Positions 16,811-29,094 of a DNA stretch of 64,000 nt are shown here, piece by piece. Positions within the stretch are counted from its first letter, which is position 1; the number at the start of each line of letters is the position of its first letter. A program made the position numbers and the translations under genes. Origin of the DNA: Bdellovibrio sp. BCCA (lineage in GTDB: Bacteria > Bdellovibrionota > Bdellovibrionia > Bdellovibrionales > Bdellovibrionaceae); NCBI RefSeq assembly GCF_037996825.1, contig NZ_JBBNAC010000001.1, forward strand, positions 2,108,001 through 2,172,000, in the 5' to 3' direction. The notes beneath the pieces were generated by a model. That model ran no database searches and was not told where the DNA came from. It saw nothing but the letters and a program-made list of their open reading frames with translations.

Positions 16811-16981
16811 ATGAAAAAATCCCCAGGATCAAAAAAAGCATCTATGAGAGCCTCTGCTGAGAAACCTGTTGAACGAAACAATAAAAAAGATATTCCTCAT
16901 AAAAAGGAACCCCATTTTGGTGGCGTGATTCACACACCGTCGGGAACTATCGAGGAAAACGTCGAAGAACAATCTCCTTAG
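16811..16981 (+). CDS. small basic disordered protein, 56 aa
   Basis: A short frame with a strong ribosome binding site (AAAAGGGAGA before ATG) encodes 56 residues rich in Lys, Ser, Glu and Pro without hydrophobic core, ending in an acidic tail. It lies six bases before the amine oxidase gene and probably shares its transcript. No family is recognised. It is the first of many small low-complexity proteins in the 16.8-29 kb region. Confidence 0.65.
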   Translation: MKKSPGSKKASMRASAEKPVERNNKKDIPHKKEPHFGGVIHTPSGTIEENVEEQSP

Positions 16982-16987
16982 ACGGGA

Positions 16988-18277
16988 ATGAAAAAAGTTT
17001 TGATCATCGGCGCCGGAGCCTCAGGATTGTCATGCGCTAAAACTTTGAGCGACGCTGGAGTTGCATGCCAAATTCTGGAGGCTCGCAATCGCATCGGTGG
17101 ACGGATTTGGACATTACAGGCCTCTCCGGCTCACAATGTAGAGCTGGGGGCTGAGTTTATCCATGGCGCGCAGAAAGAATTAATAGATCTTTTAGAACGA
17201 CATCAATTGAGTTTCGAAGATCTTTTGGATCACCACTTGGAGAGAAAAGACTCCGAGTTGAAAAACATTTCGGGATTCTGGGAAAAGGTCGAAAAGGTCA
17301 ATGCGCTTTTAAATCCCAAAATAAAAAAAGACCGCTCCATGCAGGACTTTCTAATAGCGCACCGAAAGAAAATTTCCAACCTTAAAGACCTTTACGTGTC
17401 TTACCTTGAAGGATTTCAGGCCATGGATCTTCACTTAGCAGGAGAAAAAGGTCTGGCGGAATCTGAAAAAAAGGAAGTTCCGGAACTCAACGGCCAAAGT
17501 CAGTTTCGTCCTCTGCCCGGCTATAGCTCGGTGATGGAGGGACTTTTTAAAGATATTAAGCTTTCCTCTACAGAAATTCTTTTTGAACACGAAGTTCAAA
17601 AAGTTTTAACGGATGCAAAAAATCCAACGGTTGTCGCATTAAATCTAAAAAAGAATAAGCTTCAAAATTTCACAGCGCCTTTTTTGGTCTTAGCCCTTCC
17701 CGTCGGAGTTTTAAAAAGTTCCATTTATTTTGATCCTCCCCTTCCGGATTTAACTCAAGCATTAAGAACCGTAGAAATGGGACATGCCTTAAGAATCACT
17801 TTCCAGTTTAAGGAACGCTTTTGGGAAAGGCTTTCGAAAAAGCCCATAGCCTTTTTGCACATAGATACCAAGGAATATTTCCCGACATGGTGGACCCAGA
17901 TGCCACGACGGACTCCTTTTCTCACCGCCTGGCAAGGAGGACCTAAAGCATTTGAAATCAGTCACCTTAAGGAATCAGAACAAGTGCAATTGGCCTTACA
18001 GACTTTGAGTAAAATCACGGATCTTTCATTCGCGACCCTAAAAAAAAATTACGTGAATCATTTTATGCACAATTGGACGCTGGATCCTTATACGCGAGGG
18101 TCGTATAGTTACGTGGGCGTTCACGAAAAAATCTCGTGGAAAAGACTGCAAAAACCATTTCATGAAAATATTTATTTAGCCGGAGAAGCTCTGTCTGAGG
18201 GCGCGGACCGTGGAACAGTTCAGGGTGCATTGAAATCCGGTCGCGAAGCTGCGGAAAAAATCTTACGGCGGATTTAG
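16988..18277 (+). CDS. FAD-dependent amine oxidase (flavin monoamine oxidase family)
   Basis: The 429-residue enzyme begins with a Rossmann FAD site, VLIIGAGASGLSCAKTL, then LEARNRIGGRIWTL, the usual dinucleotide and GGR motifs of the amine oxidase superfamily. It ends with the FAD-binding IYLAGEALSEGADRGTVQGALKSG block (split here by wording; about residues 395-420). Family members oxidise amines, polyamines or amino acids, or desaturate carotenoids. The size and C-terminal motif fit the flavin monoamine oxidase branch. No signal peptide. It follows the 56-residue gene closely, and its last four bases overlap the convergent UdgX gene. Confidence 0.88.
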   Translation: MKKVLIIGAGASGLSCAKTLSDAGVACQILEARNRIGGRIWTLQASPAHNVELGAEFIHGAQKELIDLLERHQLSFEDLLDHHLERKDSELKNISGFWEKVEKVNALLNPKIKKDRSMQDFLIAHRKKISNLKDLYVSYLEGFQAMDLHLAGEKGLAESEKKEVPELNGQSQFRPLPGYSSVMEGLFKDIKLSSTEILFEHEVQKVLTDAKNPTVVALNLKKNKLQNFTAPFLVLALPVGVLKSSIYFDPPLPDLTQALRTVEMGHALRITFQFKERFWERLSKKPIAFLHIDTKEYFPTWWTQMPRRTPFLTAWQGGPKAFEISHLKESEQVQLALQTLSKITDLSFATLKKNYVNHFMHNWTLDPYTRGSYSYVGVHEKISWKRLQKPFHENIYLAGEALSEGADRGTVQGALKSGREAAEKILRRI

Positions 18278-18906
18278 GTTTTTTTTAGTTCTTTAAGAGT
18301 TTTAACTGCTAATTTTAAATCGCTAATCAGTTCCTTTTTCATCTTGTCGGCTTGATCACTTCTGTAGTTTCTTAAAATCGCCGACGGATGCCACGAGAGA
18401 ATCACCAACTCCCCACTGGGAAGTTCTTTAATTATTTTTCCCCGCTCTTTTCCTAGGGTCGGTATCCGGTCTAAAACACTGCGAGCTGCTGTCGCCCCCA
18501 TGGCGACGATGATTTTAGGTTTCAGAACATCCCGTTGTTGTTGTAACCACGGACGACACGCTTTGATCTGTTGATAGTTTGGCTTATCATGCAGGCGTTT
18601 CTTTCCTGAAACGTGATGCTTAAAATGTTTCACCGCGTTCGTTAAATAAACCATGCGATCTTCTAAGCCCGCTTCTTCCATGCAGGCTTTCAAAATTTTC
18701 CCCGCAGGTCCGACGAAAGGCTCCCCTTGCAAATCCTCGTAGTGTCCGGGCTGTTCGCCGACGAGCATAATTTTCGCGGTCACCGCACCTTTCCCAAAAA
18801 CAACCTGTGTTGCATTTTTATAAAGATCGCAATTTTGACAATCGGACGCAGCTTTTTCCAATTTTACGAGCGCTTCTTTTTTTGTTTCTTTTTTTATAAT
18901 AGGCAT
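18274..18906 (-). CDS. udgX: UdgX-type uracil-DNA glycosylase
   Basis: The 210-residue protein has the Fe-S family uracil-DNA glycosylase fold with N-terminal CQNC (23, 26), motif VGEQPGHYED (Glu51, Gln52), PFVGPAG, and HPSAILR (His173). Two features mark it as UdgX rather than family 4: the GEQPG motif, and the extra loop GKKRLHDKP, whose His106 corresponds to the His that makes a covalent bond to the abasic sugar in Mycobacterium smegmatis UdgX. The usual Asp after GEQPG is His here. The start at 18906 gives the family's normal length. In-frame starts at 18981 (ATG) and 19035 (TTG) would add a low-complexity Asn-Glu repeat. Confidence 0.85.
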   Translation of the reverse strand: MPIIKKETKKEALVKLEKAASDCQNCDLYKNATQVVFGKGAVTAKIMLVGEQPGHYEDLQGEPFVGPAGKILKACMEEAGLEDRMVYLTNAVKHFKHHVSGKKRLHDKPNYQQIKACRPWLQQQRDVLKPKIIVAMGATAARSVLDRIPTLGKERGKIIKELPSGELVILSWHPSAILRNYRSDQADKMKKELISDLKLAVKTLKELKKT

Positions 18907-18924
18907 AGCGTGCTTTCTTTTTTC

Positions 18925-18960
18925 TTTTTCATTTTCATTTTCATTTTCATTTTCATTTTG
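18925..18960. repeat. hexanucleotide tandem repeat upstream of udgX
   Basis: Four perfect tandem copies of ATTTTC, flanked by one imperfect copy on each side, lie just upstream of the preferred udgX start. If translation begins at 18981, the repeat encodes an Asn-Glu run. As a 6-base unit it keeps frame when it changes copy number, so slippage would alter spacing or length rather than switch the gene off. Confidence 0.8.
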
Positions 18961-19140
18961 TTTTATTAAATAATTTTGCATGAGAAATTTCCGAGAATTC
19001 GAAGAAATACAAAAGCATGAATTGTATTTTCTCAATTCATATTCACATGCTTGCCTTTATGCGGACTTAAAACTTCTATGACTCCAGAGTTCAAAAATTT
19101 TAGAGCCGAAAAAACGGTTCATTAACAGGAGGACTATTTT

Positions 19141-19875
19141 ATGCCAAGACAATCACACGAAACAGGACGTTCGCGTTCAAGTTCCAGCCGCGGTCGTCAT
19201 GCGGCTTCAAGCCGAGGTTCGCAAGGTCGTAGATCGAGCTCTTCTTCATCTCGCTCATCTTCTCGAGGCGGAGGTCGTGGTTTTGCTTCTATGTCACCTG
19301 AAGAACATCGACGCATTTCTGCAATGGGTGGTCGGGCTAGTCATGGTGGCACAGGACGCAGCCATCAGGATGATTACGATCAAGGCACTCGACGTAGCAG
19401 CTCTTCCCGCAGCGGCGGATCATCACGTCGTGGCTTTGCAGCGATGTCGCCACAACAACGCAGCCGTATCTCAGCTATGGGCGGTCATGCCAGCCATGGC
19501 GGTCACGGCAGAGACTATGAGAGCGATTATGACCGTGATGATGGTCGCAGCAGCAGCAGACAAGGCGGACGACGTAGTAGTGGCGGATCCTCTCGTCGTG
19601 GATTCGCAGCTATGTCACCTGAAAAACGCAGCCGTATCGCAGCGATGGGCGGTCATGCCAGCCATGGTGGCCATGGTCGAGATTATGAAAGTGATTACAA
19701 TGAGGGTCGCCGCGGTCGCAGCTGGAGAGACGAAGATTATGATGAAGATTACGACGATGACAGAATGCACGCTGGTTCTGAAGAAGACGAAGACTACGGA
19801 GATTATGACGAAGATTATGACACTGATTATGAACGCGATGAAGATGAAGACCGAGGATATCGCAGTCGTCAATAA
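19141..19875 (+). CDS. Ser/Arg/Gly-rich protein with three KGG-type motifs and acidic tail
   Basis: This 244-residue protein is almost wholly low-complexity. Three copies of a motif of the form GFAxMSPxxRxRIxAMGGxASHGG occur at about residues 47-70, 98-121 and 154-176. They resemble the KGG motif of stress-induced proteins (YciG and fungal Con-10 relatives). SR/RG-rich linkers separate them and an Asp-Glu-Tyr-rich tail (about 195-240) follows. The mixed RG/Tyr/acidic composition suggests a disordered, possibly condensate-forming or nucleic-acid-binding protein. AACAGGAGGA lies before the ATG and a strong terminator follows. Its tail is shared with the product of the gene at 22612. Confidence 0.8.
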   Translation: MPRQSHETGRSRSSSSRGRHAASSRGSQGRRSSSSSSRSSSRGGGRGFASMSPEEHRRISAMGGRASHGGTGRSHQDDYDQGTRRSSSSRSGGSSRRGFAAMSPQQRSRISAMGGHASHGGHGRDYESDYDRDDGRSSSRQGGRRSSGGSSRRGFAAMSPEKRSRIAAMGGHASHGGHGRDYESDYNEGRRGRSWRDEDYDEDYDDDRMHAGSEEDEDYGDYDEDYDTDYERDEDEDRGYRSRQ

Positions 19876-19878
19876 GCA

Positions 19879-19909
19879 AAAAGCTGGCTCCTGAGAGCCA
19901 GCTTTTTTA
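19879..19909. terminator. bidirectional intrinsic terminator
   Basis: A 12-pair stem (AAAAGCTGGCTC/GAGCCAGCTTTT, 4-base loop) is followed by a T tract. It ends the KGG-motif gene and, read on the minus strand, the small membrane protein gene whose stop is at 19907. Confidence 0.9.
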
Positions 19910-20083
19910 TTCACCCCCAGCCCAAGAAGGCGCGTCACTTGCCGGGAACGATTCTTCCGAAGCTTGATCTACTTTCGCGCTTCGAGGAGAGATTTCATTT
20001 TGTTTTTTACGGTTATAACCCCAGGCAATCGCAGCAGCACCGCTGGCCGCAACTCCCAATAAAATATATGACGTGAGTTTCAT
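19907..20083 (-). CDS. small single-span membrane protein with FPASD motif
   Basis: The 58-residue product has one N-terminal hydrophobic segment (about 5-24), a basic GYNRKK stretch and the C-terminal motif SFPASDAPSW, which recurs in many short stress-related proteins of soil bacteria. Function is unknown. The ATG at 20083 follows GGAAAGGGGGC. A likely promoter is TTGACA, 16 bases, TATTTT upstream (about 20106-20133, minus). It is likely inner-membrane anchored with the tail in the cytoplasm or periplasm. Confidence 0.7.
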   Translation of the reverse strand: MKLTSYILLGVAASGAAAIAWGYNRKKQNEISPRSAKVDQASEESFPASDAPSWAGGE

Positions 20084-20262
20084 AACTGCCCCCTTTCCTT
20101 TCAAAAATAGACTTAAAAAGTTTTATGTCAACCCGTCGGAAGTACGTCACCAAAAGTCTTGAATTTATAATTTAACAACCGCTTCATATGTAAATACCCA
20201 TTTTTGCCTGCAACAATTGCAAAACATATTGGATAGCACAATTCTGCACATAGGAGGTTTCT

Positions 20263-20553
20263 ATGAAAAAACTAATCATGGCAACTTTTGTGTTCTTATT
20301 TGCTAGTGCTAGTATTGCGCAGGACTCTATGTCTGAGAGAACAAATGATGTCAATCAGACACCCAATCCTTACGTTCAAGACAAACAAACTGCCAAAGGC
20401 ACAACGAAACAAAAACGCATCAGTAAAAAAGACAGATGGGAAGAGTCTGACTACTCTACTCAGGAGCAACGTGATCGCCGAAACATGAACAATACCCGGG
20501 ACACAAATACAAATACCAACACAAATTCAACAGACGACAGTCGCAGTTATTAA
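20263..20553 (+). CDS. small exported hydrophilic protein
   Basis: A 96-residue protein with a signal peptide (1-19, ending SIA) and a short mature region that is Lys/Arg/Asp-rich and ends in a Thr-Asn repeat (TNTNTNTN). No family is recognised. ATAGGAGG precedes the ATG and a strong terminator follows, so it is a single-gene unit. It is likely periplasmic or secreted and intrinsically disordered. Confidence 0.7.
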   Translation: MKKLIMATFVFLFASASIAQDSMSERTNDVNQTPNPYVQDKQTAKGTTKQKRISKKDRWEESDYSTQEQRDRRNMNNTRDTNTNTNTNSTDDSRSY

Positions 20554-20559
20554 ATTTTT

Positions 20560-20598
20560 AAAAGCGTAGATTTCACAAATGGAAATCTACGCTTTTTT
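20560..20598 (+). terminator. intrinsic terminator
   Basis: A long stem (AAAGCGTAGATTT paired with AAATCTACGCTTT, 8-9-base loop) followed by six T residues, seven bases after the stop of the small exported protein. Confidence 0.92.
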
Positions 20599-20729
20599 CC
20601 TGTTACAAATCCTCTTTCCGTTTTGTATTTAGTCAGCCCCGGAAAGACCTCCTTGCTCATAGGCGATTTTTTCCTCATTGATAGATCTCCTCATTCAAAA
20701 AAAGCAGAAATAAATAGCAAGGAGATGCT

Positions 20730-21905
20730 ATGGATACGCTGTGTGCCACCCATGATCTTTTGGTCTTTTCACACCTGCGCTGGGACCTTGTGTTTCAACG
20801 GCCACAACATCTGATGAGCCGCTTTGCAAACCATCGCCGAGTTTTTTTCATTGAAGAACCCGTGATTGAGAATATCACTGAACCTTACTTAAGCCTTAAA
20901 GAAGAGTCTCCGGGTCTTTGTGTGGTCATCCCCCACCTACCTTTGAAGATTTCAAACCGTGAGCGCGACGACATGTCACGGGGACTTCTGGACGAGATGA
21001 TTCAAGGAGAAAATATCAAAAACTTCAGTATTTGGTATTACACTCCAATGGCCTTAAACTTTTCTGACCATCTCGTCGGACAAGTTACTATTTATGACTG
21101 TGTTGATGATCTTGTTAACTTCTCACAAACAATGGCGGAAAAAGAAACCGCCTTACTTCGGCGGGCGGACCTTGTCTTCACAGGAGGGAACTCTGTTTAT
21201 GAAGAAAAGAAACAAAAGCACAAAAGGGTTCACTCATTTCCAAGTGCCATCGACACGACTCATTTTTCAAAGGCGCGATTCGCTTTAACGGATCCGGAGG
21301 ACCAGGAAAATCTACCGCGTCCCCGCATCGGTTTTGTCGGCGGCATCGACGGTCGCATGAATTTTTCGCTATTAGAAAATATCGCGGCCTTACGCCCGGA
21401 GTGGCAGTTCATTTTATTGGGACAAGTCGCAAAAACGGTTCAAGACATATTGCCGAAGAAAGAAAATATTCATTATTTGGGAATGAAACGTTATGCGGAT
21501 CTTCCTTTTTACATGAGCTCGTGGAATTGCGCGATGGTTCCCCTAGCTAAACATGAAAGCATCCGTTTTGCGTACTCTACAAAAATTTCCGAATACCTGG
21601 CGGCGGGTCTTCCTGTTGTCACAACGTCTATTGCGGAAACTCGAATATATCACGGCAAAAATCTTTTAGCAGTCGCCGACGATGCCGAAAATTTTGTCAA
21701 AGCTCTGGATATCGTTCTTGCGGAAAAACCCTCTTCGCAACGAATTAAAAGTGTCGATGAATTCTTAAAAAACGCTTCTTGGGATCACACTTGGGAGCGG
21801 ATGTCTCTTTTAGAAATCGACGCTCTGACAAGAAAAAAAGGTTTTTCTCCTCTATTAGCCGAAGGACTGCAAACGAGTTTTAACACTGCCAGAGGCGCAA
21901 AGTGA
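20730..21905 (+). CDS. glycosyltransferase (GT1/GT4-like), paralogue of the gene at 26329
   Basis: The 391-residue protein opens with DLLVFSHLRWDLVFQRPQHL, typical of a GT-B glycosyltransferase group found near nucleotide-sugar genes. The C-terminal half has the donor-binding layout GFVGGIDGRMN, YLGMKRYADLPFYMSSWNCAMVP and KISEYLAAGLPVV. No signal or membrane segments, so cytoplasmic or peripheral. It likely builds a surface or compatible-solute glycan. AGGAGATGCT includes its ribosome binding site. A GTG start of the following relic overlaps its stop, showing that this was once an operon. Confidence 0.85.
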   Translation: MDTLCATHDLLVFSHLRWDLVFQRPQHLMSRFANHRRVFFIEEPVIENITEPYLSLKEESPGLCVVIPHLPLKISNRERDDMSRGLLDEMIQGENIKNFSIWYYTPMALNFSDHLVGQVTIYDCVDDLVNFSQTMAEKETALLRRADLVFTGGNSVYEEKKQKHKRVHSFPSAIDTTHFSKARFALTDPEDQENLPRPRIGFVGGIDGRMNFSLLENIAALRPEWQFILLGQVAKTVQDILPKKENIHYLGMKRYADLPFYMSSWNCAMVPLAKHESIRFAYSTKISEYLAAGLPVVTTSIAETRIYHGKNLLAVADDAENFVKALDIVLAEKPSSQRIKSVDEFLKNASWDHTWERMSLLEIDALTRKKGFSPLLAEGLQTSFNTARGAK

Positions 21906-22322
21906 ACACGTTAAAAATTGGCGCAGGCATTGAAATTCCGTTACAAGCCGACTATTTAAAACAGCTTGCAACCGCCAAAATTGAAAAAGTCTGCTGCCCT
22001 TTTTATTTTTCCTTGAATCCAGATTTCGCCTACCTATGTTCCAGATCTGGTGAACACCAGTCTGGAACTTTTGATTGATAAAGAGTCGGGTATCGTTCAC
22101 TTAGCCAACGAGGGAAAAATGTCCTGGTTCGAACTGGCGTCCCTTGCGCACAAACAATCGGGTTTCAACAAACATGCCTTTTTGATTTCTTGCACCCACG
22201 ATTGCCTCAATTTCCGTGCGCGGCGACCTTTGAACAGCAGTCTTGTCAGCGACAGAATTAAAAGTCTTCCTGCTGTGGAGCAGGCTACGTTCGACTTTCT
22301 TAAAAATCGTCAGCACTTTTAG
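21902..22322 (+). pseudogene. relic of an RmlD-like dTDP-4-dehydrorhamnose reductase
   Basis: A GTG at 21902 overlaps the glycosyltransferase stop (GTGA), but this frame ends at 22078 after 58 residues. A different frame, open from 22017 to 22322, translates to ISPTYVPDLVNTSLELLID, then ESGIVHLANEGKMSWFELA and RPLNSSL, which are C-terminal motifs of RmlD-type reductases. The Rossmann half is missing and the frames do not join, so most of the gene has been deleted. A short independent protein from the GTG at 22050 (90 residues) cannot be excluded but lacks a ribosome binding site. Confidence 0.75.
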
Positions 22323-22398
22323 TTCACAATTTGTTTTATGAATAACAAACCGATTTCTTTCTTTTATTCCGCTAGAGTGAAACAAGGAGGATATTTCC

Positions 22399-22548
22399 AT
22401 GAATAAAAACACCCAAAATCAAAACCGTACAACAAACAAAGATAATGTTTCTAAATCATCTACCACACAAAGATCCGGAGGCACGGATAAAGAAAATTCA
22501 CAGAATCAGAACCGCAGTGAACGTAACAAGAATACTGAAAACAGATAA
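22399..22548 (+). CDS. small Asn/Gln-rich protein (NTQN family), 49 aa
   Basis: A 49-residue frame with a perfect AACAAGGAGG box before the ATG. It starts MNKNTQNQNR and is nearly all Asn, Thr, Gln, Ser, Lys and Arg, with no hydrophobic residues to form a core. It is paralogous to the 57-residue product at 24219 (MSKNTQNPNQ). Function is unknown. It is likely a disordered stress-related protein. Confidence 0.7.
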   Translation: MNKNTQNQNRTTNKDNVSKSSTTQRSGGTDKENSQNQNRSERNKNTENR

Positions 22549-22573
22549 TTTTTTATAAAGACTTAACAAGGAC

Positions 22574-22596
22574 TCCGGATAAATCCGGTTTTTATT
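22574..22596 (+). terminator. short intrinsic terminator
   Basis: CCGGA and TCCGG pair around TAAA and are followed by TTTTTATT, between the NTQN gene and the next gene. The stem is short, so it may be leaky. Confidence 0.6.
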
Positions 22597-22611
22597 GATA
22601 AAGGAGGAACT

Positions 22612-23202
22612 ATGGCAACAAGAGGATCATCCCGCAGGGGGTCCCAAGGCTATTCGCAAAACGAAGATCGCAATCGTGGCTATGGCTACGGCAGCGAAAG
22701 AGGATCACAATCACAATATGGTTCTCAGTATGGTGGACGCGGCACTCGCTCGACTCAAAACTGGGACCAGGACTATGACGAATATCCAAGTCGTGGAAGC
22801 TATCAGGGCGAATCTTATCGCGGTTCTGAAGGACGCAGAACTAGCGGTCGGTACAGTCAAGGCGGCGTAGGTGGCGGTGGTTACTCCGATAGAGAGCGTG
22901 GCTACGGACGAGGCAGCAGCTACCAAGGAGAAGGCTACAATCAAGGTTACGGGAGAGGCTTTAACGAATACGAAGGTCGTAACTATCGTGGCGGCCAAGA
23001 AAGCAGCTCCCGCCGAGGCTTGTCTTCTCGTGGCTCACAAAATCAGGACTGGTATGAAGACGAAGACCTTTATGATAGAGACAACGATTACAATGAGGAT
23101 GAAGAACTGCAAGCCGGTTCTCGAGACTACGATGAAGATTACGATACAGACAATGACGAAGACTATGGAAGAAGCTCTTACCGTAATCAAAACTATCGTT
23201 AG
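22612..23202 (+). CDS. Gly/Tyr/Arg/Ser-rich low-complexity protein with acidic tail
   Basis: The 196-residue protein consists of RG, YG and SRG repeats (about 1-145), followed by an acidic tail with YDEDYDTD and DEDYG motifs (about 150-185) that matches the tail of the KGG-motif protein at 19141. Tyr and Arg spaced by Gly and Ser is the composition of phase-separating RNA-binding proteins, but there is no folded RNA-binding domain. AAAGGAGGAAC precedes the ATG and a long terminator follows, indicating a monocistronic, well-translated gene. Cytoplasmic by absence of a signal. Confidence 0.75.
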   Translation: MATRGSSRRGSQGYSQNEDRNRGYGYGSERGSQSQYGSQYGGRGTRSTQNWDQDYDEYPSRGSYQGESYRGSEGRRTSGRYSQGGVGGGGYSDRERGYGRGSSYQGEGYNQGYGRGFNEYEGRNYRGGQESSSRRGLSSRGSQNQDWYEDEDLYDRDNDYNEDEELQAGSRDYDEDYDTDNDEDYGRSSYRNQNYR

Positions 23203-23209
23203 AATGTCA

Positions 23210-23250
23210 GAGATAATCCACAGAAATTTTTCTGTGGATTATCTCTTTTT
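23210..23250. terminator. bidirectional intrinsic terminator
   Basis: A long stem (AGATAATCCACAGAAA with TTCTGTGGATTATCT) followed by T5 lies between the 3' ends of the low-complexity protein gene and the convergent hemerythrin gene, and can serve both. Confidence 0.92.
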
Positions 23251-23253
23251 ATA

Positions 23254-23790
23254 TTAGGCGTGTCTTGAATTTTGAGTGTGACTAACTTGTGAAACTGTAT
23301 TCAAAAGCAAGGCAATATCTTCATCCAAGGCGCTATCAACCATGCCCAAATAAGTTTGTTTCAAACTTTCCATATTTTCAGCCATTTCTTCGGCGTCATC
23401 AGAACTGAAATATCTTTTTGCGGCTTTAAATATCTCACCTTCTTCTTCTTGCACATGGTGATTTACCAATTCAGTTAATACCGTAAATTTAGCCTTCCAA
23501 GGCTCTTCGTCTACGGAAATGCGAGAAAGTTCATTGAGCACTAAAGCAACAACGTGATGCTCTTCCTCACCTTCCCAAGCCAGCTCCTCGCCTTCTTCTT
23601 CCGTGATCATCTTTAAAGGTTGATAGAAAACTTCTGCCTCTGCCTTAGAATGCGCTGTGAGTTGGTCTCGCACCTCTGAAAATAGGCTTTCTACTTCATC
23701 GAAATCTTCTTCTTCCAGTGCGTTTTCGATTTTATGAAAAAGTGATTTAACTTCTTTGTGATCTTTTTTAAGCAGTTCGTATATCTCCAT
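23254..23790 (-). CDS. hemerythrin HHE domain protein
   Basis: A 178-residue hemerythrin-like protein with the iron ligands in order: DHKEVKSLFHKIE (H, about 11 and 19), HSKAEAEVFY (His and Glu), EEHHVV and NHHVQEEEGEIF. It should bind a diiron centre and sense or handle O2, NO or oxidative stress. The ATG at 23790 has GCGAGGAGGA directly upstream. HHE proteins of this size often sit in stress regions together with DUF4142 and KGG-type genes, as here. No output domain is present. Confidence 0.9.
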   Translation of the reverse strand: MEIYELLKKDHKEVKSLFHKIENALEEEDFDEVESLFSEVRDQLTAHSKAEAEVFYQPLKMITEEEGEELAWEGEEEHHVVALVLNELSRISVDEEPWKAKFTVLTELVNHHVQEEEGEIFKAAKRYFSSDDAEEMAENMESLKQTYLGMVDSALDEDIALLLNTVSQVSHTQNSRHA

Positions 23791-24005
23791 AAATCCTCCT
23801 CGCAAGTCTTCTTTTTATAGGGTAATAGAGTCCGGAGAAAGCCCCAACCGCTCCTGACAAGTCTCGAAATTTACAATGACCGAAGTCGAGATGCACAGGC
23901 ATCCGACACGTTTCCGAAATGTATCTCGGCCATTTTTTGCCACAGTTGTTGAAATTTTCGTTCGGACTCCAGCAAACTGGACATGTCGGAAAAGGAGGAC
24001 GGAAG

Positions 24006-24194
24006 ATGAGAAGACCTGGAAGAAAACATATTAAAGATTCCGAACGAGATCATCCAAATCCTAGTTATCAAACGAAGCGCCAAAACCTGCGACAAGATAA
24101 CACTCGAGATCGCGAAAGTTTTCGGCGTGAGGATCTAGGTTTCACGAATCGTGATACCCGGGGTTATGATTATCAGCATAAAAACAAGTATTAA
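24006..24194 (+). CDS. small Arg/Asp-rich protein, 62 aa
   Basis: A 62-residue, highly charged protein (RRPGRKHIKD start, many Arg, Asp, Gln and Tyr). The ATG at 24006 follows AAAAGGAGGACGG. A longer frame from 23919 has no such support. No family is recognised. It is followed after 24 bases by the second NTQN gene and likely cotranscribed. Confidence 0.65.
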   Translation: MRRPGRKHIKDSERDHPNPSYQTKRQNLRQDNTRDRESFRREDLGFTNRDTRGYDYQHKNKY

Positions 24195-24218
24195 ATCTAA
24201 AACACATAGGAGGCAGTT

Positions 24219-24392
24219 ATGAGTAAAAATACCCAAAACCCTAATCAAAATCAGTCCAGCAACACTTCTTCTCAAAGAGACAGCAGTCAACAAAGAGACT
24301 CAATGAATCCTAATAAAAAAGACACTGGAAGATCTGATAGCTCTTCTAGCTCAAGTTCAGGCAATAAAAGCGGCGGTCAACAAAATAGATAA
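24219..24392 (+). CDS. small Asn/Gln/Ser-rich protein (NTQN family), 57 aa
   Basis: A 57-residue frame with ATAGGAGGC before the ATG. It starts MSKNTQNPNQNQ and ends GGQQNR, with a central Ser run. It is a paralogue of the gene at 22399. The function is unknown; the protein is predicted to be disordered. A bidirectional terminator follows 11 bases after its stop. Confidence 0.7.
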   Translation: MSKNTQNPNQNQSSNTSSQRDSSQQRDSMNPNKKDTGRSDSSSSSSSGNKSGGQQNR

Positions 24393-24402
24393 TGATTATT
24401 TA

Positions 24403-24441
24403 GAAAAAGAAAACGAGGCGCCCCCTCGTTTTCTTTTTTTT
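24403..24441. terminator. bidirectional intrinsic terminator
   Basis: GAAAACGAG and CTCGTTTTC pair with flanking A and T runs, between the convergent NTQN gene and the basic protein gene whose stop is at 24441. Confidence 0.88.
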
Positions 24442-24692
24442 CAATGATGTGCATGACGTCTGGTTTCCCAGCCCTTCTTCGCGGCTCTAGAACGTGCAGC
24501 GTGAGAACTTTTCGATGACGATGCCTTTTTCTTCACACTTTTACCGGCACCACCGGTTTCTTTGTTCGTTGTTGCCCACCCGATCTGTGCGGCTCGTTTT
24601 GCGGAGTAGCCTCGTTTCTTGGCGCTCTCTTCAATATGATGAGCCATGCGCTTTTGTTTGCTGCTGTATTTCTCTTTTGATCCTTGCGGCAT
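24441..24692 (-). CDS. small basic protein of the 'plasmid stabilization' type
   Basis: The 83-residue protein starts MPQGSKEKYSSKQKRMAHHI and continues with WATTNKETGGAGKS, the pattern of a widespread chromosomal family annotated as 'plasmid stabilization protein'. The name is historical and no plasmid function is shown. The C-terminal part is a Lys/Ser/Ala/Arg-rich tail ending GWETRRHAHH, likely to bind nucleic acid. AATAGGAGGA overlaps the stop of the upstream frameshifted gene, so the two are in one operon. Confidence 0.8.
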   Translation of the reverse strand: MPQGSKEKYSSKQKRMAHHIEESAKKRGYSAKRAAQIGWATTNKETGGAGKSVKKKASSSKSSHAARSRAAKKGWETRRHAHH

Positions 24693-24700
24693 AATTCCTC

Positions 24701-24971
24701 CTATTTGTTTTGGTTGTTCTGATTGTTTTGATTTTCACCGCTGTTATAAGTATCGTTTAACCCGGACTTTGAAGAGTTTGAAACTCCGCTCGAGTTGGCC
24801 TTGCTGGTTTTTTTGTGACGCATTTTCTTTTTATGTTTACGACCCGACGGATTGTTCTGTTTATCACTTTGATAACTCTCTGTTGTTGCGGGGATGGATT
24901 CCGGTTCCGAGCTTTGTGCAAAAGCCCCAAGGGAAAAAAAAACAAATTAAAATCATCACGATCTTTTTCAT
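24701..24971 (-). pseudogene. exported small protein gene, frameshifted in a 9-T run in the signal peptide
   Basis: The ATG at 24971 has AAGGAGGGGACC upstream and begins MKKIVMILICFFF, but the frame then runs out after about 35 residues. If one T is removed from the 9-T run (plus-strand A run at 24934-24942), the frame continues FSLGAFAQSSEPES, a perfect signal peptide end. It then proceeds through a basic KHKKKMRHKK region to an Asn-Gln tail ending NNQNNQNK, stopping at 24701 inside the ribosome binding site of the next gene. The full protein would be 89 residues. Mutation, phase variation, transcript slippage or sequencing error would each explain this. Confidence 0.75.
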
Positions 24972-25201
24972 GGTCCCCTCCTTTTCTTTTTAGTATATGC
25001 GGTTGCCTATTTTTTCACCAAAGGAGAAAAAACAGTTCGTTGAGTAGCAGCAAAGTTCGAGCGTTTCTCCTAAGTAATGTCTGAATATAACACCACGATA
25101 CTTTTGTTTTTGTGCATCTTCAGAGCAGAAGTTTTGAAAACTTGTGAAGGGTTTGGCATCAATATCATCTCGAAAAAAATCTTGAAACTGAAGGAGTCGT
25201 T

Positions 25202-26311
25202 ATGAGTGATAAAAAAATCCGCTATGCGGTTGTTGGGCTGGGAAATATTGCACAGGTGGCGGTTCTTCCTGCTTTCAAAGGTGCGAGCGCAAATTCTGAG
25301 CTCACGGCCCTGGTTTCGGGCGATGACGACAAGCTAAAAACTTTGGGAAAGAAATATAAAGTCAAAAATCTTTATAACTATCGGGATTTTGATAAATGTC
25401 TTCACAGCGGAGAAATCGACGCTGTTTATATTGCAACTCCTAACGTAAATCACCACGGGTTTGCAGTAGAGGCAGCACGTGCCGGCATTCATATCTTGAC
25501 GGAAAAACCAATGGCCCTGACCGAAGACGATTGCATTTCGATGCTCGAAGAAGCCGAAGACAACAATGTTAAACTCATGGTTGCCTACCGCTTGCATTTT
25601 GATCCTGCCAATTTACAAGCCATCGAAACAGCCAGGAACGGAAAATTAGGTGAACTAAGAATCTTTAATTCAACTTTCACCTATCAAGTGACAGATCCCA
25701 ATAACATTCGTCTAAAGTACGATATGGGTGGCGGGCCTCTCTATGATATTGGCACTTATTGTATCAACGCCGCGAGATACCTTTTCCAGGACGAGCCGGT
25801 GGAGGTTTTTGCCACAGCTCTCAGCAATCCGCGCGATGAACGATTCTCCGAGGTTGAGGAAATGGCGGCTGTCACTTTGCGCTTCCGTAAAGCACGACTT
25901 GCTAACTTCGTCGTGAGCTTCGGAGCTGCAGCGACGGCAGCATATGACCTAATCGGCTCAGAAGGTTCCCTGCGTTTAGAGCACGCCTACGAATATGCGG
26001 ATGACATGAAGATGACAACAACGATAGACGAAAAAGATACGGTCAAACGTTTTAAAAAACATGATCAGTTCGCTCCGGAGATTGAATATTTCTCTAAATG
26101 CATTCTTAACAACGAAGATCCGGAACCTTCGGCATTAGAAGGACTCTATGATATTCGAATCATCAACGCTATTTTCGAATCAGCAAGAACCAAGCGTTCG
26201 GTCAAACTGGATTATGTTACTAAAAAGAATCGTCCAGACATTGGCCAAAGTGTAAAAAAACCAGCTCACGGAAAACCAGAAACAATTCACGCTCCGAGTC
26301 CTCATGATTGA
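25202..26311 (+). CDS. Gfo/Idh/MocA family oxidoreductase
   Basis: The 369-residue enzyme has the N-terminal NAD(P) fold YAVVGLGNIAQVAVLPAF, the IATPNVNHHGFAVEAARAG stretch, the catalytic EKP motif (Glu101-Lys102-Pro103), and the C-terminal substrate fold with GGGPLYDIGTYCINAAR (DxGxxxxN/H-type motif). This matches glucose-fructose oxidoreductase-like members, which reduce or oxidise sugars. No signal peptide is seen, unlike GFOR itself. GAAGGAGTC precedes the ATG. It is followed after 17 bases by a glycosyltransferase, so a joint role in making a sugar derivative is likely. Confidence 0.9.
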   Translation: MSDKKIRYAVVGLGNIAQVAVLPAFKGASANSELTALVSGDDDKLKTLGKKYKVKNLYNYRDFDKCLHSGEIDAVYIATPNVNHHGFAVEAARAGIHILTEKPMALTEDDCISMLEEAEDNNVKLMVAYRLHFDPANLQAIETARNGKLGELRIFNSTFTYQVTDPNNIRLKYDMGGGPLYDIGTYCINAARYLFQDEPVEVFATALSNPRDERFSEVEEMAAVTLRFRKARLANFVVSFGAAATAAYDLIGSEGSLRLEHAYEYADDMKMTTTIDEKDTVKRFKKHDQFAPEIEYFSKCILNNEDPEPSALEGLYDIRIINAIFESARTKRSVKLDYVTKKNRPDIGQSVKKPAHGKPETIHAPSPHD

Positions 26312-26328
26312 GGCTCAAGGAGGACCCC

Positions 26329-27462
26329 ATGAAAATTCTCTGTGCAGACTCCGATCTTTTGGTGTTTTCCCATGTGAGCTGGAACTCTGAGTTTCAACGT
26401 CCACAACATCTTATGACTCGATACGCGCGTTATCGTCGGGTGTTTTTTGTTGAGCCTCTTTCCTATGAAAACCATGAAGATCCATTTTTAGATCTTCATG
26501 TTCTGGAAGAAAGGCTCTGCATTGTCACCCCTCACTTGGCGAGATCTCTTTCCAAAGAACAGAACCATGAAATCATGACGGTTCTTCTTTTGGGATTGAT
26601 CAACTCCGCCTCTATTGAGAACTATTCATGCTGGTACTATGATCCGCAGGCATTGGCTTTCAGTGACAGATTAACCCCCGACTTTATTGTGTATGACTGC
26701 GTAAAGCCATTGGTAGATTCCGAAGGAAAGAGTTCTTTTACAGGCGAGATGGAAAAAAATTTATTGAAGAAAGCGGATCTGGTTGTCAACGGCAACCCCG
26801 TCCCCCCGGAGGGAAACGGCTTTCGCAAAGCCCGGGAGTTTATTCTAGACCCGGAGGACCAAAAGCACATTGATTTTCCCAGGCTCGGCTTTGTTGGAAT
26901 CATCGATGAGCGCGTGGACTTAAGTTTTCTTAAAGAAGTGGCTCTTCTAAAACCACAGTGGCAGTTTGTTTTAATTGGTCCCATTGTGCAGATCAATGCC
27001 GCCGACCTTCCTGTAGAAAACAATATTCATTATTTAGGAACAAAAAAATACAACGAGCTGGCACCCTACCTTAGCAATTGGGATTGTGCCATTCTGCCAC
27101 TTCGAAAAACCGAGTTGGCCCAATACACAAGTCCAATGAGAATTCCTGAATATCTAGCGGCAGGACTTCCGATTGTTTCAATGGCATTTTTTAATACCTT
27201 GGAACCATATAAGAAAAATCATCTTATCAAAGTAGCCCACACCCCAGATGAATTCATTCACAAGGTGGAATCCCTGCTACCTTTTAAGAACAATGTAGAA
27301 CACCGACAAAAAATCGATCACTTCTTTGAAGAAATGTCCTGGGAAGAAACCTGGAAAAGTATGGCCCAGTTGGAAATCGATCTTCTTGCGAACAAAGCCC
27401 TGACCCAACAATTGGCGAGTCAAAAATCGAATAATAACAACCGAAGTATTTTTAAATCCTAA
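26329..27462 (+). CDS. glycosyltransferase, paralogue of the gene at 20730
   Basis: A 377-residue GT-B protein with the same opening as its paralogue (DLLVFSHVSWNSEFQRPQHL) and the same donor-site order: LGFVGIIDERVD, HYLGTKKYNELAPYLSNWDC and RIPEYLAAGLPIV. Overall it diverges from the paralogue more in the acceptor half, so the two probably use different acceptors. CAAGGAGGA supports ATG 26329, not the TTG at 26308. It is the second gene of an operon starting with the Gfo/Idh/MocA oxidoreductase. Confidence 0.85.
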   Translation: MKILCADSDLLVFSHVSWNSEFQRPQHLMTRYARYRRVFFVEPLSYENHEDPFLDLHVLEERLCIVTPHLARSLSKEQNHEIMTVLLLGLINSASIENYSCWYYDPQALAFSDRLTPDFIVYDCVKPLVDSEGKSSFTGEMEKNLLKKADLVVNGNPVPPEGNGFRKAREFILDPEDQKHIDFPRLGFVGIIDERVDLSFLKEVALLKPQWQFVLIGPIVQINAADLPVENNIHYLGTKKYNELAPYLSNWDCAILPLRKTELAQYTSPMRIPEYLAAGLPIVSMAFFNTLEPYKKNHLIKVAHTPDEFIHKVESLLPFKNNVEHRQKIDHFFEEMSWEETWKSMAQLEIDLLANKALTQQLASQKSNNNNRSIFKS

Positions 27463-27483
27463 TCTTTAAAAAAGGAGATTCTC

Positions 27484-27864
27484 TTGGCAACCAAACTCAG
27501 CGGAAAAAAGAAATCCAAATCGGCAACTAAACGCACACGTCAAAAAGACGCCGCCCATCCATTCGCAGAATATCCGGGATTTGCGGAAGACTATGACTTT
27601 GAGGCACCTCACCGTCACAGTGGGCCTTACCTGCGCTCTGTGGAAGACAATGTCTCTCACTCTCCTCGCACCTCACAAGGACCGCGTCGCGACCGTCAAA
27701 CCGGCCGGGAAGCACCCTACTTCACACAAGGTCGCCGTAATTCTTCAGATCATGAAGAGATGAGTTTCGGAAGCTCAGAACGCCCCCTACGCTCTTTGCG
27801 TCGAACCAAAGTAGATACGCGAGACCGATCTCCACGAGCCCGCCGAGAGCCGCCTCGTCACTAA
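27484..27864 (+). CDS. basic Arg/Ser-rich protein, 126 aa, TTG start
   Basis: The gene begins at TTG, with AAAAAAGGAGA spaced correctly and 21 bases after the glycosyltransferase stop. The product is hydrophilic: Lys-rich start (KLSGKKKSKSATKRTRQK), a short aromatic patch (PFAEYPGFAEDYDFEA) and an Arg/Pro/Ser-rich tail ending RARREPPRH. No family is recognised. It is probably a disordered nucleic-acid-binding protein like others in this region. Confidence 0.65.
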   Translation: MATKLSGKKKSKSATKRTRQKDAAHPFAEYPGFAEDYDFEAPHRHSGPYLRSVEDNVSHSPRTSQGPRRDRQTGREAPYFTQGRRNSSDHEEMSFGSSERPLRSLRRTKVDTRDRSPRARREPPRH

Positions 27865-27865
27865 C

Positions 27866-28000
27866 ATGACCACCATTGTTCTGCTGATCCAGGGATTGTT
27901 TTACTTTGCCACAGGTGTATGGCCGCTTCTGCATTATAAATCTTTTTCGGCCATACTCGGTCTTCTTTTATTTTATTCCAATCGTGGAGAAACATATTGA
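27866..28000 (+). CDS. short membrane protein, possibly truncated
   Basis: A 44-residue frame that starts one base after the previous stop and overlaps the next start. It contains LFYFATGVWPLLHYKSF, which resembles the first span of a four-helix membrane family that normally continues past a TGPKxDxWLV motif. Here the sequence leaves that pattern after SFSAILG, so this may be a truncated relic or an independent small membrane protein. The ribosome binding site is poor. Confidence 0.4.
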   Translation: MTTIVLLIQGLFYFATGVWPLLHYKSFSAILGLLLFYSNRGETY

Positions 28001-28461
28001 AATACCAACACTCAGAAACAGAAAATCTGAAGGACGAAATCACGCATATCGAAAGTGAGACGCGAATGATTTTGCCGGGCGTTCAGACGTTGTTCGGCTT
28101 TCAACTTGTCACCGTTTTCAACGATCGCTTTGCAATTACATTAAATTACAACGAACAAGTTCTGCACTGGGGCGCTATTGCGTGCTCGGCGGTATCTGCG
28201 ATCCTCGTTATTTCACCTGCCGCTTATCACCGACTGGCCGAACCGCATACGGCTTCCCGGCGTTTCACCCATTTTAGCAATCTGTGGCTGAAAAGTTCGC
28301 TCTTCCCTTTGGCTCTGGGGTGTGTGATAGATTTTTTTTTGATCGGAATCGCCATCACTAAAAATTACGTTGTCAGTGGTATCGTGAGTTCGATTCTTTT
28401 TATTGGTTTTATCACTGCTTGGTATATTTTTCCTTTGTTAATAAGACGCAAACTTCCCTGA
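27997..28461 (+). CDS. DUF6328-type membrane protein
   Basis: The 154-residue protein carries ESETRMILPGVQTLFGFQLVTVFNDRF (about 20-46; here as overlapping short motifs) and four hydrophobic segments (about 33-50, 60-78, 100-118, 124-145). The LPGVQxLFGFQL block is the signature of DUF6328. Function is unknown. The start is TTG at 27997, overlapping the preceding stop (TTGA) with GTGGAGAA upstream. It is in line with the oxidoreductase/glycosyltransferase operon and may be its last gene. Confidence 0.75.
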   Translation: MKYQHSETENLKDEITHIESETRMILPGVQTLFGFQLVTVFNDRFAITLNYNEQVLHWGAIACSAVSAILVISPAAYHRLAEPHTASRRFTHFSNLWLKSSLFPLALGCVIDFFLIGIAITKNYVVSGIVSSILFIGFITAWYIFPLLIRRKLP

Positions 28462-28526
28462 TAAAGTACAAGTTGATTTTGCTATTCCTGAATATAACTT
28501 TGATTTGTTCAACAAAAGGAGATTTT

Positions 28527-29042
28527 ATGAATTTATTTAGAGCTGTTTTAGCATCACTAGTTATTGTATTTTCTGCTGTTCACGCGTGGGCTTTATCCGA
28601 TTCAGAAATCGCTGAAGTTCTTATGACCGCCAATGAAGCGGAGATTGACGCCGGCAAAGTTGCAAAATCCAAAGCGGCGGATAAAACCGTGAAAGACTTT
28701 GCTGAACACATGGTCTCAGAGCATGAAGAAAATAAAAAAGAAGGTAAGAAAATCACCAAGGATGAAAAGATCAGTACAAAATCCAACGACACTGCGAAAG
28801 ACCTGAAAAAGGACGCCAAAGAAAAGCTTTCTGATCTTAAGAAAAGGAAAGGCAAAGACTTCGATTTGGCTTACATTCAAAACCAAATCAATATGCACCA
28901 ACAACTTCTGACAGACCTTGAACAAAAGTACATTCCACAAGCACAGAATCCTCAGTTTAAAAACTTCTTGAACGAAACTAAGACACACGTCGAACAACAC
29001 CTCGCAAAAGCCAAAGAAGTCGAAGCGACTCTGACCAAGTAA
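28527..29042 (+). CDS. exported DUF4142 protein
   Basis: A 171-residue protein with signal peptide (about 1-22, ending AWA) and a four-helix DUF4142 domain: LMTANEAEIDAGKVAKSKAADKTVKDFAEHM (two motifs, about residues 30-60) and YIQNQINMHQQLLTDLEQKYIP near 120-141. DUF4142 proteins are ferritin-like bundles, usually periplasmic and stress-related, and the metal ligands are not always kept. AAAAGGAGA precedes the ATG at 28527. A longer frame from 28419 runs through the upstream gene end and is rejected. A terminator follows. Confidence 0.88.
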   Translation: MNLFRAVLASLVIVFSAVHAWALSDSEIAEVLMTANEAEIDAGKVAKSKAADKTVKDFAEHMVSEHEENKKEGKKITKDEKISTKSNDTAKDLKKDAKEKLSDLKKRKGKDFDLAYIQNQINMHQQLLTDLEQKYIPQAQNPQFKNFLNETKTHVEQHLAKAKEVEATLTK

Positions 29043-29062
29043 GCGAATTCTTCTTGAAGAGA

Positions 29063-29094
29063 AAAAAGTCCCGGCTCTCGCCGGGACTTTTATT
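29063..29094 (+). terminator. intrinsic terminator
   Basis: AGTCCCGG and CCGGGACT pair around CTCTCG, followed by TTTATTT, 21 bases after the DUF4142 stop. Confidence 0.9.

Follow-up and report, generated by a model that had tools for sequence, protein, structure and literature searches.

Small hydrophilic proteins and enzymes in a frequently reshuffled, probable stress-survival island of Bdellovibrio sp. BCCA

Why are small open reading frames (ORFs), mostly for hydrophilic, low-complexity proteins, gathered among enzyme genes within 12.3 kb of the Bdellovibrio sp. BCCA genome, and do these genes share a physiological role? The region in question, hereafter the island, spans positions 16811-29042 of the window, which is the whole 64,000-nucleotide stretch analysed (contig NZ_JBBNAC010000001.1, positions 2,108,001 to 2,172,000), and it holds eleven small ORFs together with enzyme genes and one decayed gene. 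The genome (label G000) comprises 4.01 Mb in two contigs, the second of which (G000:C2, 209,039 bases) is possibly a plasmid, and the comparison set includes 23 congeners; G codes denote genomes of relatives, and L codes denote loci of relatives or second sites. We consider it rather probable that the region is a modular, often reshuffled island for survival of desiccation, osmotic and oxidative stress, made mostly of known parts.

Density and conservation of the small genes

The original prediction had pointed to an unusual density of small genes, and this proved correct. Using one mechanical ORF caller and a strict criterion (38-250 amino acids (aa), at least 5 bases of AAGGAGG, GRAVY < -1.3 and few order-promoting residues), we found 8 small disordered ORFs in the 12.3-kb island, 0 in the remaining window and 1, probably spurious, in a 400-kb sample of the same genome. 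Relatives, scored with a slightly looser criterion, yielded 0 in 398 kb of random stretches (twenty of 20 kb, drawn from nine congeners and a further member of the family). The Poisson probability of such a density is about 1e-17, which is only indicative since the criteria were set after the island had been seen; the contrast is large despite these post-hoc criteria, and the clustering is far from chance.

It had also been claimed that ten of the genes encode disordered products and that almost all carry a consensus Shine-Dalgarno (SD) box. FoldIndex is negative for all ten, and nine are open, hydrophilic and of low complexity, but the supposed 40-aa gene at 24701 (genes are named here by their first coordinate) is only the 3' part of a longer ORF on the minus strand (24701-24972) for a secreted hydrophilic protein. 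This ORF starts at about 24972 with an SD of AAGGAGG and a signal-peptide-like sequence, and a single additional T in a T9 run shifts its frame, through either real decay or a sequencing error. Moreover, a 58-aa gene on the minus strand (19907-20083) had been missed. AAGGAGG matches of 6-7 bases lie ahead of the start in 8 of the 11 small genes, and 9 of 11 have an SD of 6 or more bases when the true start of the frameshifted gene is counted, compared with 48 of 305 own-genome genes of at least 150 aa (P ~2e-6); the gene for a 56-aa hydrophilic protein without family match (16811-16981, plus strand) has a weak SD of only 4 bases. The ribosome-binding sites of the small genes are suited to efficient translation. 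A hydrophilin composition, that is, glycine >6% with strong hydrophilicity, was found for 16811, 19141, 22612, 24219, 24441 and the 24701 fragment, while 20263, 22399, 24006 and 27484 fall below the glycine threshold.

The ratio of nonsynonymous to synonymous substitution rates (dN/dS) was computed on homologues from close congener pairs, not on the window's own copies. It was 0.01 for the 62-aa family, 0.02-0.03 for the 83-aa type, 0.03-0.07 for the R/S/G-rich proteins, 0.07 for the secreted protein, 0.11 for the N/Q-rich proteins (with few changes) and 0.37 for one less conserved ORF. Because of these mostly low ratios, most of the small genes appear to encode real and mostly strongly conserved proteins. 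The idea that the N/Q-rich proteins form one homologous family was rejected, since their alignment is mostly composition and only M1 is invariant.

Recurring partners in shuffled order

Conserved synteny, one of the checks on which the original prediction had staked itself beforehand, was found in the form of content kept in shuffled order, both across the genus and in another genus of the family; no relative has a gene order identical to that of the island. The recurring set comprises the hemerythrin HHE protein (23254-23790, minus strand, PF01814, E=4e-13), the conserved 62-aa protein (24006-24194, plus strand), an R/S/G/Y-rich protein, the Gfo/Idh oxidoreductase nearest to glucose-fructose oxidoreductase (GFOR; 25202-26311, plus strand), a glycosyltransferase (GT), the secreted DUF4142 protein (28527-29042, plus strand, PF13628, E=5e-32), the DUF6328 membrane protein (27997-28461, plus strand, PF19853, E=1e-17) and the 83-aa basic protein of 'plasmid stabilization protein' type (24441-24692, minus strand). 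These partners recur at loci L053, L054, L055, L185, L187, L188, L192 and L200, and the hemerythrin gene is divergent from the 62-aa gene in the first three of these as well. In G001, G019 and G018 this pair is followed by GH2, GT, GH1-RmlD, Glf, GalE, Gfo/Idh and an R/S/G-rich gene, with ADH and SRPBCC genes also following it in G001 and G019. In G010, hemerythrin, DUF4142, DUF6328, R/G/Y-rich and N/Q-rich genes lie with Gfo/Idh within 4 kb, and DUF6328 adjoins DUF4142 there too. G017 carries a fusion of an R/Y-rich protein with the 62-aa family, then ADH, SRPBCC, the SFPASD gene and Gfo/Idh, with a GH15-like gene upstream (identified by eye); G032, of another genus, has ADH, SRPBCC, Gfo/Idh, an N/Q-rich gene, hemerythrin, the 83-aa type and DUF4142. 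In G007, a KGG gene is convergent with the SFPASD gene beside the sugar cassette, and hemerythrin, Gfo/Idh and a CsbD-like gene lie together at another site. The 16 loci around Gfo/Idh genes of relatives contain 18 small disordered ORFs, and 20 random stretches contain none (Mann-Whitney P=9e-5); further small ORFs occur at the KGG and 83-aa loci of relatives, in a count that includes the anchor itself. Since relatives keep the same content in varying arrangements and purifying selection acts on the small genes, a common physiological role of the island genes is likely on comparative grounds.

In G001, G018 and G019 (L053:1-4578, L054, L055:14232-18893), the immediate neighbours of the hemerythrin/62-aa pair are genes for cyanophycin synthetase, an IadA-like and a CphB-like protein. 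Cyanophycin synthetase occurs in 6 of 24 genus members, the copy of the window's genome being elsewhere (G000:C1:1652313), and no paper on cyanophycin in Bdellovibrio was found in a literature search.

The same observations bear on the idea that the island is a landing zone, a tolerant site that gathers recently acquired accessory genes of soil bacteria without common function, the small proteins being unrelated passengers. It would suit this idea that the flanks are variable, the left-flank protein occurring in 3 and the right-flank protein in 0 of the 22 relatives searched (the flank genes are too seldom conserved to decide an empty-site test), that GT counterparts occur in Acidobacteria, Bacteroidota and Alphaproteobacteria and the 83-aa type on rhizobial plasmids, and that one gene is decayed and one frameshifted. 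However, the same partners recur at different sites of other species, and the small genes are under strong purifying selection. In addition, G+C is flat over the region (0.41-0.46), no integrase was seen within the island and the sole tRNA is 8 kb away. We therefore regard such a gathering of passengers as unlikely, though not negligibly so. A mobile element was rejected, as there is no tRNA at the borders and the G+C is flat; no Rfam element was found in the region.

The sugar genes raise another possibility, namely that GT, GH1-RmlD, Glf, GalE, GH2 and Gfo/Idh form the core of an envelope polysaccharide locus and that the disordered proteins assist in assembling the polysaccharide or the envelope. 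An R/S/G-rich gene does follow Gfo/Idh at the end of a complete sugar cassette in G001, G009, G018 and G019, and several of the small proteins are secreted. The four-gene cassette (GT/GH1-RmlD/Glf/GalE) is, however, not complete in the island: Glf and GalE are absent and the GH1-RmlD fusion gene (21902-22322, plus strand, PF04321) is decayed, yet the small genes are intact. Its C-terminal remnant is clear and matches an intact copy, located 1.1 Mb away, at 44% identity; an N-terminal GH1 remnant at 21902-22050 was unsupported, with BLAST matches at chance level only. That intact copy belongs to a complete cassette with GH2 at a second site of the same genome (L057:4722-12246), which has no disordered genes beside it, whereas the 5.6-kb contig of G010 contains the small genes, DUF4142, DUF6328 and Gfo/Idh and lacks a sugar cassette. 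An envelope polysaccharide core is thus quite improbable. The L057 cassette adjoins flagellar and sigma-28-like genes. Two GTs remain in the island, GT1 (20730-21905, plus strand, PF13692, E=2e-13) and GT2 (26308-27462, plus strand, PF13692, E=4e-12; better start 26329 with an SD of 7 bases), the latter adjoining Gfo/Idh. They are 43% identical to each other, and GT1 is 49-54% identical to the GTs of intact cassettes. The closest named matches of the GT include Bacteriovorax, Bacteriovoracaceae and Bdellovibrionales, and it is accompanied by Glf at 61 of 80 loci (Acidobacteria, Bacteroidota, Alphaproteobacteria and others).

Protein families of the island

The enzyme names given by the original prediction (UdgX, hemerythrin, DUF4142, DUF6328, amine oxidase and sugar-modifying enzymes, the last being the two GTs and Gfo/Idh) agree with Pfam, which assigns 18274 to the uracil-DNA glycosylase superfamily, and with NCBIfam for its placement in UdgX. 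The 244-aa R/S/G-rich protein with an acidic D/E/Y tail (19141-19875, plus strand) matches PF10685 in three KGG stretches (E=3e-13; 50 bits, cut-off 20.4) and is charge-segregated, with +19 in the body and -19 in the last quarter. It resembles the KGG proteins GsiB, YciG and YmdF in its three repeats above the curated cut-off, but has MGG in place of the KGG lysine, and its repeats are embedded in a long R/S/G-rich body with the acidic tail. YciG and YmdF depend on sigma-S in Salmonella, and YciG belongs to the hydrophilins (PMC5437024). The missed 58-aa protein carries the motif EESFPASDAPSW at its end, and its counterparts in congeners adjoin the KGG gene in L048 and lie near Gfo/Idh in L187.

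On the minus strand, the UdgX-family uracil-DNA binding protein (18274-18909; start probably about 18906) scores 245.6 bits against TIGR03914 (cut-off 189.95), and its loop GKKRLH, which covers the conserved histidine, aligns with GKRRIH of a solved UdgX. In UdgX, the loop histidine forms a covalent bond. Just 5' of the likely udgX start lies a tandem repeat of the hexamer TTTTCA (6.7 copies, 18920-18959), possibly an expression-tuning repeat. The FAD amine oxidase gene (16988-18277, plus strand, PF01593, E=1.7e-54) starts 6 bases after the end of the 16811 gene, with which it is probably coupled.

Among solved proteins, the closest relative of the Gfo/Idh enzyme 25202 is Zymomonas GFOR, with full-length similarity (E=6e-66, residues 3-338), followed by an aldose-aldose oxidoreductase (E=3e-61). 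Unlike Zymomonas GFOR, 25202 has no N-terminal export signal, since the ORF starts MSDKKIRYAVVGLG and the alignment begins at residue 3. Zymomonas GFOR is known to form sorbitol under osmotic stress (PMC4177126). Homologues of the Gfo/Idh gene adjoin GH15 and trehalose genes (treYZ) in Sphingomonas and GH15 in a cyanobacterium; their neighbours in Paraburkholderia and Agrobacterium are unremarkable.

The 62-aa family is seen in this genus only, in 8 of 59 relatives (all congeners) and in 1 of 163 genera in a phylum sample, with 20 invariant residues across 6 sequences. The 83-aa type is wider, being found in 16 of the 59 relatives and on rhizobial plasmids, where it is annotated 'plasmid stabilization protein'; on Rhizobium lentis p2 it lies 5 kb from UdgX and near ligD, with glgX also there. 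In G023 and G032, R/S/G/Y-rich proteins with a BON-like domain were noticed by eye near the 83-aa type gene (L202:9338-10294, L192:14879-15835). The other small genes, all on the plus strand, encode a 49-aa N/Q-rich protein (22399-22548, SD of 7 bases, similar ORFs in six other genomes), a 196-aa R/G/Y-rich protein with an acidic tail (22612-23202, SD of 7 bases), whose G010 counterpart adjoins Gfo/Idh, a 57-aa N/Q/S-rich protein (24219-24392, SD of 6 bases), and a 126-aa hydrophilic basic protein with a TTG start and no family (27484-27864, SD of 6 bases).

The 96-aa protein 20263 (20263-20553, plus strand, SD of 6 bases) is small and disordered with a signal-peptide-like start, and it raises the idea of a predation or attack-phase programme in which the secreted disordered proteins, like Bd0108, have a part in contact with prey. 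Bd0108 is itself a disordered protein (PMC4267844), and 20263 matches its model NF053838 weakly, yet at 15.4 bits, below the cut-off of 40, so that a relationship to Bd0108 was rejected. Besides, many congeners lack the island set or have only part of it, and no pilus genes were recognised nearby. A role in predation is therefore very improbable, and nothing in the analysis ties the island to the attack phase, which the original prediction had mentioned.

Regulation and a probable role in stress survival

The island genes are probably divided among many short transcription units and do not form a single operon. Clear hairpins stand after 19141 (19880-19905, between convergent genes, read in sequence), 20263 (20560-20596, plus strand, 15-pair stem), 22612 (23209-23246, strong, between convergent genes, 17-pair stem), 24219 (24405-24437, between convergent genes, read in sequence) and 28527 (29064-29091, 12-pair stem, with the T-run scored on the minus strand). 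Private terminators had been proposed for many of the small genes; those after the five genes stand, while there is no clear enrichment over the whole region (20 found versus 13.9 +/- 3.8 expected).

Several points weigh against a stress-survival island. No k-mer or dyad was significant after correction in 56 upstream regions versus 266 controls, although a weak or degenerate motif could escape, so the shared upstream motif suggested for checking was not obtained; there is no regulator gene inside the island, and the seven sigma-factor genes found in the genome are all outside the window. Coordinated regulation is thus unproven, and the genes may have been transferred together horizontally without being regulated together. 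Order and membership vary, and one species' genes may be spread over several loci, the KGG, GT and 83-aa genes being far apart in G001 and G019. Furthermore, 7 of the 16 Gfo/Idh loci, six of them distant, have no qualifying small ORF, and the loci of the most distant relatives are among these. The functional literature stands behind KGG and UdgX only, and the roles of the other hydrophilic proteins would follow from general inference. For the common stress programme of the original prediction, conserved content, purifying selection and partner genes speak in favour, and the lack of a shared motif or island regulator against.

Nevertheless, the KGG protein, UdgX and the GFOR-like enzyme, together with the CsbD-like, Mn-catalase-like, GH15 and trehalose genes among the partners in relatives, fit desiccation, osmotic or oxidative stress. 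Starting from what is observed, namely presence, selection, SD strength and co-location, we infer the following functional steps. In non-growing cells exposed to drying, osmotic or oxidative stress, the KGG, R/G/Y-rich, N/Q-rich and 83-aa proteins would build up and might serve as hydrophilins that protect proteins and nucleic acids when the cytoplasm is short of water. The GFOR-like enzyme may yield a polyol/aldonate pair, with the polyol as compatible solute. Hemerythrin and amine oxidase could deal with oxygen, iron or amines; hemerythrin and UdgX would limit oxidative and DNA damage, with UdgX capping uracil lesions; and the GTs and secreted small proteins may remodel the envelope. Over time the island would have been gained, lost and scrambled, the window copy having lost Glf, GalE and most of GH1-RmlD.

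The original prediction knew of no described system made of this set. The set itself is indeed unmatched, as no paper matching it was found among the open papers searched, but similar mixed clusters exist. In Acinetobacter baumannii, the hydrophilins DtpA and DtpB, KatE and the predicted diiron protein DtpC form a BfmR-controlled cluster needed for drying survival (PMC13232832), which like the island places several hydrophilins beside oxidative-stress proteins including a predicted diiron protein. This is a likeness by description; the island has no catalase domain among the Pfam domains of its proteins, more small genes, other families, sugar enzymes, UdgX and GTs, and no known regulator. Plasmid stress islands of rhizobia and sphingomonads are also alike, with the 83-aa type beside UdgX, ligD and glgX in Rhizobium lentis p2 and Gfo/Idh beside GH15 and treYZ in Sphingomonas, although they lack hemerythrin, the 62-aa family and R/G/Y-rich genes among their annotated genes. 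Because KGG proteins are sigma-S dependent in Salmonella and A. baumannii has its hydrophilin/oxidative-stress cluster, the kind of system is already known; what is new lies in the detail, in the combination of genes, the 62-aa family specific to the lineage and the R/S/G/Y proteins with their segregated charges. Going further, the R/S/G/Y-rich proteins, with their basic body and acidic Tyr/Asp tail, and the 62-aa family might constitute a dedicated protective-condensate system, phase-separating with nucleic acids and each other in non-growing predator cells, which by analogy would be a bacterial counterpart of RGG/Tyr-type condensate proteins. Since the two are fused in G017 (L187:7278-7847), the 62-aa domain following an R/Y-rich N-terminal body, they are physically linked, but we hold this extension rather improbable.

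If the genes of the probable stress-survival island are co-induced, they would make it possible to study, gene by gene, how predatory bacteria outlast drying and starvation from one prey to the next. They also offer a collection of bacterial disordered proteins under strong selection, among them a genus-only family, for probing the roles of disordered proteins in stressed cells.

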